Assembly (NCBI GenBank): GCA_018069525.1
Contig: JAGPUQ010000025.1
Span: forward strand, 1 to 64,000
Source of the DNA: Porticoccaceae bacterium
Lineage (GTDB): Bacteria > Pseudomonadota > Gammaproteobacteria > Pseudomonadales > Porticoccaceae
DNA length: 64,000 bases
Reading direction: 5' to 3'
This document shows positions 45,894 to 54,151 of the stretch, piece by piece. The position numbers and the translations under genes are program-made. Positions within the stretch are counted from its first letter, which is position 1. Each line of letters opens with the position of its first letter. The notes beneath the pieces are model-generated. The model was not told the DNA's origin. It saw nothing but the letters and a program-made list of their open reading frames with translations, and searched no databases.

Positions 45894-47174
45894 TTAGACA
45901 TCAACGGTTCTCGACCGCTCAAACAACTGAAATTGCTGCCATCTCAAGCCGATCAACCCCATAGTAAATAACATATATTGAGGCTCCTCCATCCACTGAA
46001 AAACCCACCCAAAAACCATAACCGTTATAACCAAAAATTTTGAAAAAAGGTCAACCGAGACATGCTTCCACACCAAATAATATATGTAAAGATAAACTGA
46101 CAGCCCAACTAAGCCAATATCACCAAAAATTCCAGCCCAGGAAAAAAACAATGAAAACATGCTGGAACCAGTTAGACTGTTAGACATGTAATGTCCTTGA
46201 TGCAACACCCAAATTTCAGTCGTTAATGGTGAAACCGTTGCACCCAATTTATCTAAATAGCTGGAATACTCTGGCAAAAGCATTGCCAAACGACCAACGG
46301 TATGCCCCGGACCCAACCCAAATAGAACGTTAAGAAAGGAGTCATAGGCATCAAATATCACGCCAAAAACAGAAAACTTTTGAACAAAACCTTCTTTCAG
46401 AAGATCAATTTCAACCCAATTGCTTAATTCTGGAAAAACCGTTTGAGACATTTTGTATAAAACAATACAAGACGCAAAAATCGAAACAGTCAAAAAAAAT
46501 ACTTTCCTAAAGCTATGCAAAGTAATCATCGTTAACAATGCCGAAGCAACCAAAAAAACTGCAAAAACCTGTTTGGCATCGGAAAATACTACGGTAGCAG
46601 CAAAAAGAATTGATATTGGAATACACATTGTGATGTACCTGAACGAAAATCGACCATATAATTCCTCCCCTAATAAAATAAAATAAACAGCTAAACTTAA
46701 CGCTATAGCTCCCGAAAGATGAGAACCCGCACCCATGCCAATTAAAAGCCCTTCAACGTCATCACCGCTATACCCTTGAACAAATCTCTGATATAAAATA
46801 AACATCAAATGAACAATAGCCACGAACACCATTCCACGCCTAAATATCAGCACCCCTTTCCCAGACCATTTAACTGAAATAATACAAAGAGCAAAGACCG
46901 GAGCTTCCATAAGAAGCACAAAATCTAAAAGTGCATTAACAAATCCAGCCTCATTAATAATCGAACTAAATAGAATCAATAAAAATAAAACAATTCCTGC
47001 ATACAAAAACGGCTTAGTTATGGCTGACTTTGATGCTCTTATTACCAACACAAACGACAAAAAAACTAGCGGGAAATGCACAAAATTTATCACAGATGGA
47101 AATCCAACATAGGAAGCGACTCTCGAAAACATAGCCGCACCGATAACGCACAAAAAAATCTGGGAAAAAAGCAT
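45894..47174 (-). CDS. O-antigen/exopolysaccharide polymerase-like membrane protein (Wzy)
   Basis: 426 residues, hydrophobic throughout, about 10-12 membrane helices (SFVLVIRASKSAI, FLYAGIVLFLLILFSSII, YITMCIPISILFAATVVF). A long periplasmic loop lies around residues 245-320 (WVEIDLLKEGFVQKF, GHTVGRLAMLLPEY). No sequence motif is decisive, as is usual for Wzy. The AT-rich composition and the position among transferases support polymerase. It starts 1 nt after the preceding glycosyltransferase stop, so translation is coupled. Confidence 0.75.
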   Translation of the reverse strand: MLFSQIFLCVIGAAMFSRVASYVGFPSVINFVHFPLVFLSFVLVIRASKSAITKPFLYAGIVLFLLILFSSIINEAGFVNALLDFVLLMEAPVFALCIISVKWSGKGVLIFRRGMVFVAIVHLMFILYQRFVQGYSGDDVEGLLIGMGAGSHLSGAIALSLAVYFILLGEELYGRFSFRYITMCIPISILFAATVVFSDAKQVFAVFLVASALLTMITLHSFRKVFFLTVSIFASCIVLYKMSQTVFPELSNWVEIDLLKEGFVQKFSVFGVIFDAYDSFLNVLFGLGPGHTVGRLAMLLPEYSSYLDKLGATVSPLTTEIWVLHQGHYMSNSLTGSSMFSLFFSWAGIFGDIGLVGLSVYLYIYYLVWKHVSVDLFSKFLVITVMVFGWVFQWMEEPQYMLFTMGLIGLRWQQFQLFERSRTVDV

Positions 47175-47175
47175 A

Positions 47176-48399
47176 TTATTTCATGCTCCCATTAATTTTA
47201 TCGTATACCGTAAAAACCTGATTAGCCCAACTCAATTGCTTTGCCCTACGCAATACTCCTTCGCTTAATTCGCCATTCAATTTTGATGACCCTAGATGTT
47301 TTTTCAACGCATCCCCTAGTTTTTTAACTACCTGTAACTCCGTGCAACCGTTAGTATCTATCGTGTAACCGCATGTTTCGTCTACGATAACACCCGGCCC
47401 GCCCAAGCTCAGGCAAATCACCGGAAGTCCATTACCCATCGCTTCAAGCACAACCATGCCACCCGAGTCATGCAGGCTTGGAAACAATAAAACATCATGA
47501 CCCTGGTATACCTCATCGAGCCCTCCTCTTGGCATCCATTCCAGCCACTCTACCGCGTGTTCAATGCCGAGCTGACATGACAGATTTTTTAACCATAGCT
47601 TATCCGGCCCTTTGCCAAGGATAGTCAACCTCGATTCAGGAAGGTGCTTTAGCAATAAGGAAAACGAACGAAGCGCTAAATGAACACCCTTCCAATACAA
47701 TAAATTTCCCACATATAAAACCCGAGGCTCAGGCCAAATTTCAAATTTTTTTATAGGTTTTTGAGGTGAGATATCTAACGCTATTCCCAGCTGCACAGAA
47801 GTTTTATTGTGAAATTTCTTTGGAATTAGGTGACAAGTATCTTCCGAGGTTACATAAATTTTCGTTGCAGTATGAAATGTCATACGCATCAACGGAGAGA
47901 ATTTAACCCATAGGTTAGCTAGATCCCGAATGGCATCTATCAAACAGCCTCGCGGTGGATAACTTTTTCGTAATCGAAAAGGTGTTCGCTCCCCCCCCCC
48001 CACCGGGCCAAAAATAAACGGTACACCCAACAACCCCAAAAAACTCGGCTGCCTAACGCTCACAAAAGTCACATGATGAATCACATCAAATGAATGTTTT
48101 TTGACGAGCCGCTTCGCAACGCTATAAATACCTATTTGCCATAGGAAATAATAAAGATGGACTCCACGCGCACCTTTCTTCCACGACTTAAGCCAATCAG
48201 GCAGGTCGTAATAGGTAAAATGCAAGTTATCACAAGGAGCCTCTGATAATGCGGCGATTATCGAGCGCTTGTTATTAGCCCTAGTTATCACATGGACTTG
48301 ATGCCCGAGCTTCGCTAATTCTATAGCCCAATTCCAGCCAACGCCCGGCTCAGAACCCTTATTTGGCTCGCAGGCATAGGCGGAGAGCAAAATATTCAA
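47176..48399 (-). CDS. Glycosyltransferase family 4, with a G11 tract in the coding strand
   Basis: 407 residues, starting at TTG 48397-48399, which overlaps the preceding stop. N terminus ILLSAYACEPNKGSEPGVGWNW, then FGPVGGGERTPF (the GPVGGG motif), and the C-terminal domain VLYVGNLLYWKGVHLALRSF and FPSLHDSGGMVVLEAMGNGLP. The GPVGGGE motif is encoded by a run of 11 G (47991-48001 as C on the plus strand), which could slip and switch the gene off. Coupled to the kinase-like gene upstream and the polymerase downstream. Confidence 0.94.
   Translation of the reverse strand: MNILLSAYACEPNKGSEPGVGWNWAIELAKLGHQVHVITRANNKRSIIAALSEAPCDNLHFTYYDLPDWLKSWKKGARGVHLYYFLWQIGIYSVAKRLVKKHSFDVIHHVTFVSVRQPSFLGLLGVPFIFGPVGGGERTPFRLRKSYPPRGCLIDAIRDLANLWVKFSPLMRMTFHTATKIYVTSEDTCHLIPKKFHNKTSVQLGIALDISPQKPIKKFEIWPEPRVLYVGNLLYWKGVHLALRSFSLLLKHLPESRLTILGKGPDKLWLKNLSCQLGIEHAVEWLEWMPRGGLDEVYQGHDVLLFPSLHDSGGMVVLEAMGNGLPVICLSLGGPGVIVDETCGYTIDTNGCTELQVVKKLGDALKKHLGSSKLNGELSEGVLRRAKQLSWANQVFTVYDKINGSMK
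47991..48001. repeat. Homopolymer C11 (G11 in the glycosyltransferase frame)
   Basis: Eleven consecutive C on the plus strand. In the gene they are GTG GGG GGG GGG G, coding V-G-G-G within the GPVGGGE motif. A change of one base would frameshift the enzyme at about residue 135. Confidence 0.95.
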
Positions 48400-49511
48400 T
48401 TCGCTAACACCAACGGAACTTGTTCGATCAGAAAATCCTTGAACTCACGGTTTTTATTACCATTCTTCTGAAACACCATACCCAGAAGATACAAAAGCAC
48501 CAAAGCTGCGTGATCTACTTTCTCAATCTCTAATTTTTGAAGATATTCTTTGATCAACCGCCCCGACAGGAACGATCTTACTCTCTTATTATCACCAAAT
48601 AGATACGCTTGAATATAATGGAAATGACAAAGATCCCATAACGGCAACCCATCAAACTCTGAATCCTCCCAATCTATCGCCGCTAATTGATTATTCGGCT
48701 GCCGCTTTAAGTTCCAGGGCGCAAAGTCACCATGGACCAATACAAGAGGAATATTTTTTTTTCCCTTAATCTGATTAATTGCTTTCTTAATTACGCCTGG
48801 AAGCTCAACAAATGAACCTCCTCCTGAACTTTCTATTAGACCGCATAAAATATCCTTTTGATGATCCAAAGTTGTTGTTGTATGCCTAGGCAACTTCAAG
48901 AGAAAATCAATATGGCTACGCGTCAATTTCCTTGACGTAAGCCTGCCTGAAATCACTGTCTGCCACGTGGGTCCATTCTCGTTGTCTATAGTTAGTAATT
49001 TTGGAACATTTCTAACGCCCAATTGAGCCAATGATTTGAGAGTTTCTGCCTCACGTTTTAGGCTTATACGCGCACCGGATTCCAACGCCACTTTCATAAT
49101 CACTAGCGGCTGGCCCGTGTTTAAGTCAACAAAAGTCACTACCGCCTTTTGCTGCGATCCGCGGGTACCAACATAAATAACCGGCGAAACTACCTTCTTA
49201 CTCCCCGCTACTATTACTCCCCTAACAACATTTGCAGTCACGCCCGTCACACCCGGCATTAGAGAAGCACATCTTAGGGAGTAAAGACATCGCAGCACAA
49301 ACCAGGCAACTTGAGATACCAAACCATAAGGATGCCATTGAGCCAACACTTTCTTTCCCAACAGCGGGTTAGCAGGTACTATCCAACGCAGCTTGTCATT
49401 TTTGGAAATCACAAAATACCGCTCATCATACGACGACACACTACCGTTCTGGTCGCAGGCGGCCAAATTTATTTCATGAAGGACTGTTTTAATCCGCGCG
49501 CTTTGAACCAT
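48396..49511 (-). CDS. Aminoglycoside-phosphotransferase-like kinase in the polysaccharide locus
   Basis: About 371 residues from the ATG at 49509-49511, with AAAGGA upstream. The C-terminal part has the APH/kinase motifs: VLVHGDFAPWNLKRQPN (Brenner loop HGDxxxxN, about residue 265) and AAIDWEDSEFDGLPLWDL (metal Asp). The N-terminal 150 residues are unfamiliar. It should phosphorylate a small molecule or sugar; similar proteins sit in some glycan clusters. It carries an A9 run (48754-48762, T on the plus strand). Overlaps the upstream NTase-kinase fusion gene. Confidence 0.78.
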   Translation of the reverse strand: MVQSARIKTVLHEINLAACDQNGSVSSYDERYFVISKNDKLRWIVPANPLLGKKVLAQWHPYGLVSQVAWFVLRCLYSLRCASLMPGVTGVTANVVRGVIVAGSKKVVSPVIYVGTRGSQQKAVVTFVDLNTGQPLVIMKVALESGARISLKREAETLKSLAQLGVRNVPKLLTIDNENGPTWQTVISGRLTSRKLTRSHIDFLLKLPRHTTTTLDHQKDILCGLIESSGGGSFVELPGVIKKAINQIKGKKNIPLVLVHGDFAPWNLKRQPNNQLAAIDWEDSEFDGLPLWDLCHFHYIQAYLFGDNKRVRSFLSGRLIKEYLQKLEIEKVDHAALVLLYLLGMVFQKNGNKNREFKDFLIEQVPLVLAN

Positions 49512-50838
49512 TAAATTTGTTCCTTTGCTTCTCACGTACTTGCATATAACTAAGGACTTCCGCTAAAACTTCATTAACAGTTCTATCTAACGATTGCGCG
49601 GTATCAATCACAACGCAATTACGCCGCTCTTTTGCAAAGGTCAAGTATGCCTCCTGCTGTCGCTTTGTTTCAGCTAGTTTAACCTCCGATTTTCTTGCAT
49701 GAATCACTTCGCAGGGAGCATCCAATACAACAATAAGGCCCGGATCAGGAACAAACCGCCCTAAAAACTTGGCAATCCGCATTCCCGCCCCATACCGGTA
49801 TCGTTTTGGATCGACATAAATGTCATAATAATATCTGTCCCAAATGCGCAACGTCGCATTCCGATGTTTATGAAAATAATTATCATACCAATATAATATT
49901 AACCACCATCCCAACTTAGCAATGGATATCACTTTGTTCCTGGGTGGCATACTGTGCGGATCATCTATAACTAGCCCGACGCTTGATCGAGATCTCTTCA
50001 AATCGGGCTTTAAGTGAATAAAAAATATTTCCTTCGCAACGCCTTCTAATTCCCGAGAAATTGCGGAAATAACTGACGATTTTCCTGACCCATCAACGCC
50101 GAGAAAGCATACATTTGTTATGGGGTACTGAGTAAACTGGACTTTAATTTCATCTACATGGTGCCTGACAGCGGAACAAAATGCTTTTATTGGATTCTTC
50201 CACAACTCACCAATAATTAGCTGGAACTTAATACTGGAAAGCAAAGTAAAAATAGCATCTCTATCATCATCTATCACGGCATTTAACAAAGAGTTTGATA
50301 GTTTTCTACTCAGAAAGCCCTGCAATATCTGCAGCACCTCAGCTCTATTATTAGCAAATACTGCCTGGACATTTTTTTGGTATTTTTCGTTAATCCACTT
50401 ACCTATTAAGTAACTTGAAAAAAAAGAAATAACGGCTTCATGACAAGGAGAAGGCCTCATGAGCATTCCACCTGATGAGGGCACTTCTATCATCTTATTG
50501 AATACTTCGTCACAACCCAGGTAAGGAAGACCTTTCCAATAGAAATTAGACGGCACGAAATCAAACTTGATTGCGGTTCGTGCATCACCCCAACTAACAC
50601 CATAAATAAAAATTGACTTGACATAAAAACGTCTTACAATCGTCGTAATTATTACTGAATCAATATCTTTAATAATCTTAACAATCGCTTCAAAATCGCT
50701 CTCCCGGATAAGCATATCGATATCATTCCCGGAGCTTCTATTAGGCAACCCTTCGTAATTACGCAGGACGCAGTGATCAATACCATCCCTATCCATACGA
50801 TCAATAAAAAATTCTAAAAAATTAACTAGCGATATCAC
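49489..50838 (-). CDS. Fusion of nucleotidyltransferase-like and thymidylate-kinase-like domains
   Basis: 449 residues from GTG at 50836-50838 with AAGGGA upstream. The N-terminal part (about 1-120) has CVLRNYEGLPN followed by GNDIDMLI, an NTase-fold G-x-D-x-D-like motif. The C-terminal part (about 240-440) opens with P-loop CFLGVDGSGKSSVISAI and has WDRYYYDIYVDPKRY (DR-Y of TMP kinases) and VVLDAPCEVIHARKSE. The enzyme substrate is unknown. It is followed by the APH-like kinase, an odd pair for a polysaccharide locus. Confidence 0.75.
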   Translation of the reverse strand: MISLVNFLEFFIDRMDRDGIDHCVLRNYEGLPNRSSGNDIDMLIRESDFEAIVKIIKDIDSVIITTIVRRFYVKSIFIYGVSWGDARTAIKFDFVPSNFYWKGLPYLGCDEVFNKMIEVPSSGGMLMRPSPCHEAVISFFSSYLIGKWINEKYQKNVQAVFANNRAEVLQILQGFLSRKLSNSLLNAVIDDDRDAIFTLLSSIKFQLIIGELWKNPIKAFCSAVRHHVDEIKVQFTQYPITNVCFLGVDGSGKSSVISAISRELEGVAKEIFFIHLKPDLKRSRSSVGLVIDDPHSMPPRNKVISIAKLGWWLILYWYDNYFHKHRNATLRIWDRYYYDIYVDPKRYRYGAGMRIAKFLGRFVPDPGLIVVLDAPCEVIHARKSEVKLAETKRQQEAYLTFAKERRNCVVIDTAQSLDRTVNEVLAEVLSYMQVREKQRNKFNGSKRAD

Positions 50839-51773: not shown

Positions 51774-52895
51774 TCACATATAGAGATCTTTTAGAACCGA
51801 ATCTGCGATGGCAGTCCAGTTTAACTTTTCTTCTATCAAATTTAATGACCTACGACCTATCCCCTCAAGCTTTTTAGCATAAAATAATTCGCCAAATACT
51901 CCCATTTCTTTAGCGATAATTTCAGGAGTATTCTCACTAAGCACAATTCCATTACTATATTGCCTGACATATTCACCCATATTGGCTTCTTCACTAATCA
52001 GCAAGGGTTTTGCCAAAGCCGCCGCCTCTAATACCGCTATAGGCATTCCCTCCCATCGTGAAGTATGCACAAAAATATCCATCTTTTTTATTGTGCTAAG
52101 TTTATGGTCGCCAAACCTAGTGCCGAGGAAGCGGATTGATGCTGACGCACCCGCTTTCTCCGCAAGCTGGCTCAAGAGCCCCTTATCTGGACCATCTCCT
52201 ATTAACCAAAGCTCACCTTTACCTCCCATTTGTTTATAAGCAGAAAACCCTTGGATCAACAAATCAAGCCCCTTGTGATCCCAGGCAAGTCTGCCGCAAA
52301 ACCCAAATATAGGACGCTCATTAGGCTCTTCACACGCAACCGTGACAAATTTTACATCTTCGCATGATTGGCCATTGGGAATTAAGATGACCTCAGCCGA
52401 TGGATATAAATTCTTTATATCACTTACTTCGCTTTTACCTACTGCATGAATTCTTGTTGCGCCGGCAATAAGCGCCTTTTCAAAAAATCTCATATATATG
52501 GCTTTAGCTATTTTGTTCTTTTCCATACTACGTGAGTTATATCCGCTATGTGGCGACAATACCCACGAAATTTTATTTCTTTTTAATCTTTTGCTAACAG
52601 AAAACAGTTCAGGTAAAAATACCGAGTGCAAATGAAACATCACGTCTTCTTGATTAATAGCGTCAATAGTAATATTAAGCTCAGTTGAAAGCAAAAACCT
52701 TACCTTAGATGCTAAAAATAATTTCAATGGATAGTCATGCTGGTGTCTTATTACATCCGGCGTTTCGGTTAGGCCCCACACCTCCACATCAATTCCAAGG
52801 CGCAGCTGTTCTGTCGCCAAATTGTGGACTACTTTATTAACGCCATTCATCGTTTCCGGGTTCGCCTTCCCTTTAAGCACATGAATCACTTTCAT
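51774..52895 (-). CDS. Glycosyltransferase family 4
   Basis: 373 residues. N terminus MKVIHVLKGKANPETMNGV, acceptor domain with HLHSVFLPELF and SPHSGYNSRSMEKNK, donor domain FGFCGRLAWDHKGLDLLIQGF and HTSRWEGMPIAVLEAAALAKP (E-x7-E). One of three GT4 enzymes assembling the repeat unit. Its ATG overlaps the flippase stop by 4 bp. Confidence 0.93.
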   Translation of the reverse strand: MKVIHVLKGKANPETMNGVNKVVHNLATEQLRLGIDVEVWGLTETPDVIRHQHDYPLKLFLASKVRFLLSTELNITIDAINQEDVMFHLHSVFLPELFSVSKRLKRNKISWVLSPHSGYNSRSMEKNKIAKAIYMRFFEKALIAGATRIHAVGKSEVSDIKNLYPSAEVILIPNGQSCEDVKFVTVACEEPNERPIFGFCGRLAWDHKGLDLLIQGFSAYKQMGGKGELWLIGDGPDKGLLSQLAEKAGASASIRFLGTRFGDHKLSTIKKMDIFVHTSRWEGMPIAVLEAAALAKPLLISEEANMGEYVRQYSNGIVLSENTPEIIAKEMGVFGELFYAKKLEGIGRRSLNLIEEKLNWTAIADSVLKDLYM

Positions 52896-54151
52896 CCAGA
52901 CGCTCTCTTTTTTAACTGTGTTTTAAAGTACAGCAATAAACAAAAGAGCATGATTATTTGCGTACACAGAATACCCATCATAGCACCGTCAACACCCCAC
53001 TTTCCTACCATCACACCTGCAAATGAAATGGAAAATATCGTCATTAACATATAAGTAATAAAAATTGGCTGGGAGGCATCTAATACACGTAACCCTGCTC
53101 GGAGTGGTAAGCTAAAAAATATGAATACATAGCAAAGCGCGTACCAACGTAATACATAGCCGTAGCCTTGGTACTGCTCACCGTAAATCAAACGAAGCAA
53201 TGTGTCTGGAGATAAACTGACTGCCAAAGCAATCACCACTGTTGCCCCCCCGCCCCAGAAGGATACCTTTAACAGGTACTGCTTTAAGCCCACTAGTGAA
53301 TCCTTCATAAAGTGTCGACTCGCTGTTGAAGGTACTATATTTTCTAAGCCCTGAAATAGAATGTGAACAACCCCTATAATATTTTGAGTTGCCTTGAGTG
53401 CCCCCACCGCAACTGGCCCTACAAGACTACCTGTGGTTAATATAAAATAGTTGCCTGAGGTCCACTGCATTATGGCCGATGCCGTTAACCATTTCGACAA
53501 CACCCAGTGATTTTCAAATACGGACCATAATTGACTCGTATTAAAGTCCAGTTTATCCAACTGAAATAAACCAACAAGAACCGCTAGAGCAGAGCTTATA
53601 GCAATTATCCACAGAACATCGGCAGCGGCTGGGGAAGCACGTAAGAAAAACAACATCAACAGACTGATCTGCCCCAAATAGCTGACAGCATCATTAATCA
53701 GCGCTGCTAGTGGCCGCGCCTCGGCAAAGAACAACCTCCTTAAAAAATCCTGATTCTGGAAAAAAAAAAGACTCATCGCTAATGGCAACGCGAGATGGGC
53801 AACTTGCCACTGCGGGCTGATAAGATTGCTGAGAACAATCCCCAACCATAGCAATAAGGATGTAACAGTAGCGAAGATAAGCTGTTGCGCCACCACGGCG
53901 CCGTAATAGCCGGGCCTCTCTGTATCTGACTGCTTTGGCCCTATCGTCATCATCGGCGCGCTGATCATTGCCATTTGAATGGAGTTGACGAACAGCACGG
54001 ACATCCATACCAAGGTAAATACACCAAAGGCTTCAATGCCAAGAAACCTCGCTATCAGTAGCCCAGTGAGAAAATTAACGCCACTGACCATCGCCTGATC
54101 GACGAGAGCTAAATTTATATGGCTATACCGTTTTAGGAACTTTTTTAGCAT
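52892..54151 (-). CDS. Oligosaccharide flippase, Wzx-like (MATE/polysaccharide_synt family)
   Basis: 419 residues, about 12 membrane helices (VNFLTGLLIARFLGIEAFG, SLLLWLGIVLSNLI, LLMLFFLRASPA). It moves undecaprenyl-linked repeat units across the inner membrane. The coding strand has a T10 run (A on the plus strand at 53760-53769) coding S-L-F-F-F. It overlaps the downstream GT4 gene. Confidence 0.9.
   Translation of the reverse strand: MLKKFLKRYSHINLALVDQAMVSGVNFLTGLLIARFLGIEAFGVFTLVWMSVLFVNSIQMAMISAPMMTIGPKQSDTERPGYYGAVVAQQLIFATVTSLLLWLGIVLSNLISPQWQVAHLALPLAMSLFFFQNQDFLRRLFFAEARPLAALINDAVSYLGQISLLMLFFLRASPAAADVLWIIAISSALAVLVGLFQLDKLDFNTSQLWSVFENHWVLSKWLTASAIMQWTSGNYFILTTGSLVGPVAVGALKATQNIIGVVHILFQGLENIVPSTASRHFMKDSLVGLKQYLLKVSFWGGGATVVIALAVSLSPDTLLRLIYGEQYQGYGYVLRWYALCYVFIFFSLPLRAGLRVLDASQPIFITYMLMTIFSISFAGVMVGKWGVDGAMMGILCTQIIMLFCLLLYFKTQLKKRASG

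Follow-up and report, generated by a model that had tools for sequence, protein, structure and literature searches.

Genes for surface glycans are typical targets of phase variation (PMC5953494, PMC3068675), and the poly-G/C loci of Campylobacter, Neisseria and Bordetella are among the best comparisons: intragenic G/C runs of more than 8 bases in surface genes, in which gain or loss of one base turns the product OFF (PMC8355987, PMC5084427, PMC1891110). Of 30 long G/C tracts in Bordetella, 29 vary from one species to another (PMC1891110). In a meningococcal poly-G series, a strong dependence on length was found up to G10, mismatch repair had an effect for G5-G8 only, and its loss was without effect at G10-G13 in Neisseria (PMC4085013). 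The nearest precedent for the locus described here is the K locus of Acinetobacter baumannii, where capsule glycosyltransferase and flippase genes are known to be inactivated by slipped-strand events and phage-resistant mutants carry gtr6 A9>8 and wzx T9>10 (PMC10249906).

The present locus, an exopolysaccharide (EPS) gene cluster with a G11 tract in a glycosyltransferase gene, resembles the K locus in having mononucleotide runs in both a glycosyltransferase and a flippase gene (here G11 and T10), with products that a frameshift truncates. It differs in that the A. baumannii slips were observed as phage-escape mutants, whereas here there is one assembled allele, and in that the glycosyltransferase run consists of G rather than A. 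With the loci of Campylobacter, Neisseria and Bordetella it shares an intragenic G/C run of more than 8 bases whose length keeps the frame, a surface gene and OFF forms at one base more or less; those genomes, however, carry sets of tracts with length polymorphism, while here there is a single tract that is not conserved among homologues. The reading that we favor, with a probability of roughly 0.6, is that G11 is an incidental, slippage-prone tract in an EPS glycosyltransferase that is ON in the assembly, and not an evolved contingency locus.

The G11 tract and the glycosyltransferase gene

The longest homopolymer of the window, that is, of the whole 64-kb stretch of DNA analyzed, lies at positions 47991-48001. 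It reads as C11 on the plus strand, flanked by GGTGTTCGCT on one side and ACCGGGCC on the other, and as G11 on the coding strand of an open reading frame on the minus strand (47176-48399). Within this gene, the tract occupies nucleotides 399-409 and is spelled GTG GGG GGG GGG GAG, encoding V-G-G-G-E, the end of a GPVGGGE motif (residues 131-137; 47989-48009, minus strand; codons GGC CCG GTG GGG GGG GGG GAG). The reading frame is open across the tract, and the gene is intact in the assembly. An earlier note on this DNA had placed eleven G exactly within the GPVGGGE codons, an observation that is confirmed in position, length and frame. Its further claim that function needs the tract does not hold: it is the residues that are needed, any glycine codons serve, and relatives in the family and class use mixed codons.

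The gene begins with a TTG start and encodes 407 residues. The product was taken for a glycosyltransferase in the earlier note, and its profile match bears this out: PF00534 (Glycos_transf_1) scores 98.3 bits against a cut-off of 26.4 over residues 224-354, accompanied by weaker Pfam matches to GT4 N-terminal models and by matches to many GT4 NCBIfam models, all of the latter below cut-off. The structure model (mean pLDDT 82.7) has MshA and BshA as its closest PDB folds (probability 1.00) and predicts a GT-B-type fold, in which the GPVGGGE motif lies within the N-terminal domain, in the loop that follows strand 128-133. Both the profile match and the predicted fold give the enzyme the two-domain architecture of the GT4 glycosyltransferases (PF00534/PF13692); the GPxGGGE motif, by contrast, is particular to the present subgroup of homologues.

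The EPS cluster that houses the gene spans 31922-55649 and is lower in GC than its flanks (its genes have 37-52% GC, whereas almost all others have 49-59%). It encodes a Wzz/Wzc-type chain-length kinase, a Poly_export protein, GT4 enzymes, a WecG/TagA/CpsF-type transferase, a MatE flippase, a WcaJ-type initiating transferase and sugar-nucleotide enzymes, the identity of the last being judged by sequence only. This context suggests that the glycosyltransferase contributes to a surface structure. A search of three other genomes of the genus returned weak glycosyltransferase hits and no orthologue of the G11-bearing enzyme, which is why the gene looks accessory.

Immediately upstream, an APH/kinase-like gene (PF01636; 48396-49535, minus strand) overlaps the glycosyltransferase, the TTG start of the latter overlapping its stop codon. 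Downstream, beginning 1 bp after the glycosyltransferase stop, a membrane protein is encoded (45894-47174, minus strand) that is a probable Wzy-like polysaccharide polymerase; a Pfam search gave no match for it. Within the same EPS operon, a protein encoded at 49489-50838 (minus strand), whose gene overlaps the APH-like gene, has a thymidylate-kinase-like C-terminal domain scoring below cut-off. Of the 19 A/T runs in the genome that reach at least 9 bases, two lie in this operon, both further slip-prone sites: an A9 tract in frame in the APH-like gene (48754-48762, coding strand, minus) and a T10 tract in frame in the MatE-type polysaccharide flippase gene (53760-53769, coding strand, minus; A10 on the plus strand; gene at 52892-54151, minus strand). 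Their number fits the low GC and the codon usage of the operon.

A slip of one base frameshifts the enzyme, as had been proposed. Loss of one base (G10) gives a product of 152 residues and gain of one (G12) a product of 161, against 407 for the intact protein, while G8 and G14 stay in frame with one glycine fewer or one more. The truncation is clean, coming within about 10-25 codons, and both forms end before the donor-binding domain and lack the entire Glycos_transf_1 domain. Judging from the spacing of the two genes, the frameshift could also have a polar effect on the downstream polymerase-like gene.

Long G runs in the genome and the family

Pattern searches of the 2.73-Mb draft genome (27 contigs) found twelve separate G8 runs and a single G11, with neither a G9 nor a G10; this G11 is the sole G/C run of at least 9 bases in the whole genome. 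When the glycosyltransferase gene's own codons were shuffled synonymously, 17 of 2000 shuffles restored G11 at exactly this position; the probability of G11 at the site is 0.0025 with the glycine and valine usage of the other EPS genes and 0.0010 with that of non-EPS genes. GGG accounts for 8 of the 34 glycine codons of the gene outside the tract, for 20% of those in other EPS genes and for 14% in non-EPS genes, and this higher use of GGG in the gene and its EPS neighbors makes an all-GGG motif likelier. The 46 genes of the window strongly avoid G/C runs of at least 6 bases, since 3 are observed where synonymous shuffles give about 15. The survival of G11 despite this avoidance could mean either tolerance or benefit. 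An overall enrichment of homopolymers in the EPS operon was considered and rejected, A/T runs of at least 8 bases in EPS genes being as frequent as in synonymous shuffles (4 observed, 4.9 expected).

These counts bear first on the possibility that selection keeps G11 as a reversible switch of the glycosyltransferase, so that populations would be mixed for the complete exopolysaccharide. The classic contingency pattern invoked in the earlier note is indeed present in part: the run is long enough to slip by the threshold commonly used for C/G (more than 8 bases, as in PMC1891110), it lies in frame inside an open reading frame, one base more or less truncates the product cleanly, and homopolymers are otherwise avoided in these genes. 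Against an incidental origin, G11 is an outlier of low site probability, with no G9 or G10 beside it, in a surface-polysaccharide glycosyltransferase, which belongs to the classic target class. Contingency loci usually, if not obligatorily, come as several tracts spread over surface genes, however, and this genome has one tract, not a set. G11 is a real outlier, yet it was found by scanning, and a lone outlier per genome is weak evidence of selection.

Nor are long G tracts confined to genes of this kind in the family. Runs of at least 10 G are present in 54 of 110 family genomes. Among 30 such tracts that were inspected, most were intergenic or stood beside gaps or contig ends; those clearly within genes, apart from the present glycosyltransferase, were in an amidohydrolase, a LapD/GGDEF-EAL protein and a PBP2-type transpeptidase. 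The last is implausible as an on/off gene, so that in this family a long in-frame G tract is not by itself the mark of a contingency locus. Three sister genomes (G001, G002 and G003) have exactly one G11 run each, which was considered as a possible conserved tract and dismissed as coincidence: the runs (L088, L089 and L086, respectively) are unrelated in position and lie outside genes or at gene edges. The G11 of L086 is followed closely by a C8, a possible terminator-like hairpin. Two further runs, a C16 close to the beginning of a small open reading frame of 130 residues (L075, in G007) and a G17 near a contig end after a carbamate-kinase-like frame (L072, in G039), are possible artefacts or variable tracts. 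In the genome itself (L036) and in G563 (L143), G8 runs arise from the GGDEF motif, with Leu/Arg-Leu followed by GGG GGG GAT; here, too, conserved glycines give rise to a G run.

The motif and the tract in homologues

Full-length homologues that are 39-51% identical have a motif of constant length (GPxGGG or GPxAGG, followed by E or D) without any indel, which implies that the tract arose from third-position substitutions and not from repeat expansion. Pattern searches over 112 genomes of the family and 369 of the class found 10 and 51 other copies of GPxGGGE, respectively, and in all 61 the glycine codons are interrupted. GGG makes up 12 of their 183 glycine codons, and no copy has more than two. 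A tract kept at varying length in relatives would be expected of a contingency locus, and none of these family and class copies has one. The residues of the motif are, on this comparison, conserved, and the tract is not.

A search of 398 genomes across the phylum located the all-GGG motif pattern in three genomes besides this one, and only in G536, which belongs to another class, is the gene concerned a glycosyltransferase (L108 / L146, C74). This GT4 homologue is 37% identical over 393 residues and has an identical in-frame G11, its motif codons being GTG GGG GGG GGG GAA; GGG accounts for 25 of its 39 glycine codons. In congeneric orthologues of the G536 gene the run is interrupted, namely GTA GGG GGA GGG in G555 (74%) and GTC GGT GGC GGG in G527 (71%). 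It follows that the tract comes and goes within the genus by synonymous change, and the G536 tract is plainly a passing product of codon drift. By analogy, this case is the strongest evidence on the present G11, and the failure of the parallel tract to be kept within its genus counts against selective maintenance here. Among other candidates, the G10 matches in the phylum (L106, L109 and L110) were set aside as not being glycosyltransferases in the motif frame, and the G8 matches in the genus of G536 as being other proteins, at least one of them a GGDEF motif. A search of viral contigs with a gapped flank pattern for an allele of other length found nothing.

The genome encodes both MutS (1212 bits) and MutL (621 bits) in open frames. 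An intact repair system speaks against an evolved contingency locus, although in Neisseria its loss was immaterial at G10-G13 and, as its effect was limited to G5-G8 (PMC4085013), it leaves room for slippage at G11. Given the Bordetella polymorphism (PMC1891110), variation in length would be unsurprising here even without selection, and by analogy the length of G11 may well vary in nature. Taken together, the on/off reading of the earlier note is partly supported: the in-frame run in a surface-glycan glycosyltransferase and the truncation by single-base slips stand, while upkeep of the tract, which its family and class homologues are without, does not. A switch maintained by selection therefore appears unlikely.

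Readings of the tract and their meaning

The favored reading, an incidental tract, can be put as a sequence of steps. G11 would have come about through the choice among synonymous codons for a constrained V-G-G-G-E, within an accessory EPS glycosyltransferase gene of low GC. As is presumed from other long G runs, its rate of replication slippage would then exceed that of ordinary sequence. A slip of one base would leave the enzyme truncated, and it might also cut translation of the polymerase-like gene that follows. Selection could then act on OFF mutants and their revertants, phages that use the polysaccharide being one possible agent. We infer both that the polysaccharide would be lost on a slip and that no selection keeps the tract.

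A variant closer to a true switch can be conceived, in which a mismatch repair-proficient bacterium has a single-tract contingency locus, the glycines of the V-G-G-G-E being recoded entirely with GGG, whereby this most constrained stretch of the enzyme also serves as the switch, and the G536 tract representing convergence. We regard this proposal as quite unlikely. An error of sequencing or assembly, with a true tract of other length or an interruption that was collapsed, gains some support from the draft state of the assembly (27 contigs) and from several relatives in which poly-G stands beside runs of N or at contig ends (for example L071, L078 and L094), as is typical of artefacts. The present tract, however, lies deep inside a contig, its frame is exactly preserved, and the uninterrupted protein resembles its homologues down to the conserved length of the motif, all of which makes such an error very improbable. 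Programmed or leaky recoding, in which the ribosome or RNA polymerase would slip on the G run and yield a short second product by design, can be dismissed almost entirely, for although ribosomes can slip on homopolymeric sequence (frameshift motifs are surveyed in PMC4066793), the out-of-frame products finish in short tails that contain no domain, and the predicted folding of the surrounding RNA is no stronger than in shuffled sequences (z = -0.06).

If G11 does switch, one base would control the exopolysaccharide and perhaps, with it, phage sensitivity, grazing and biofilm traits, and it would do so in a bacterium that is not among the well-studied pathogens known for phase variation. Should G11 not switch, the locus calls for caution, since the G536 parallel, with its interrupted sister orthologues, indicates that a conserved glycine triplet and codon usage alone can mimic a textbook contingency tract.
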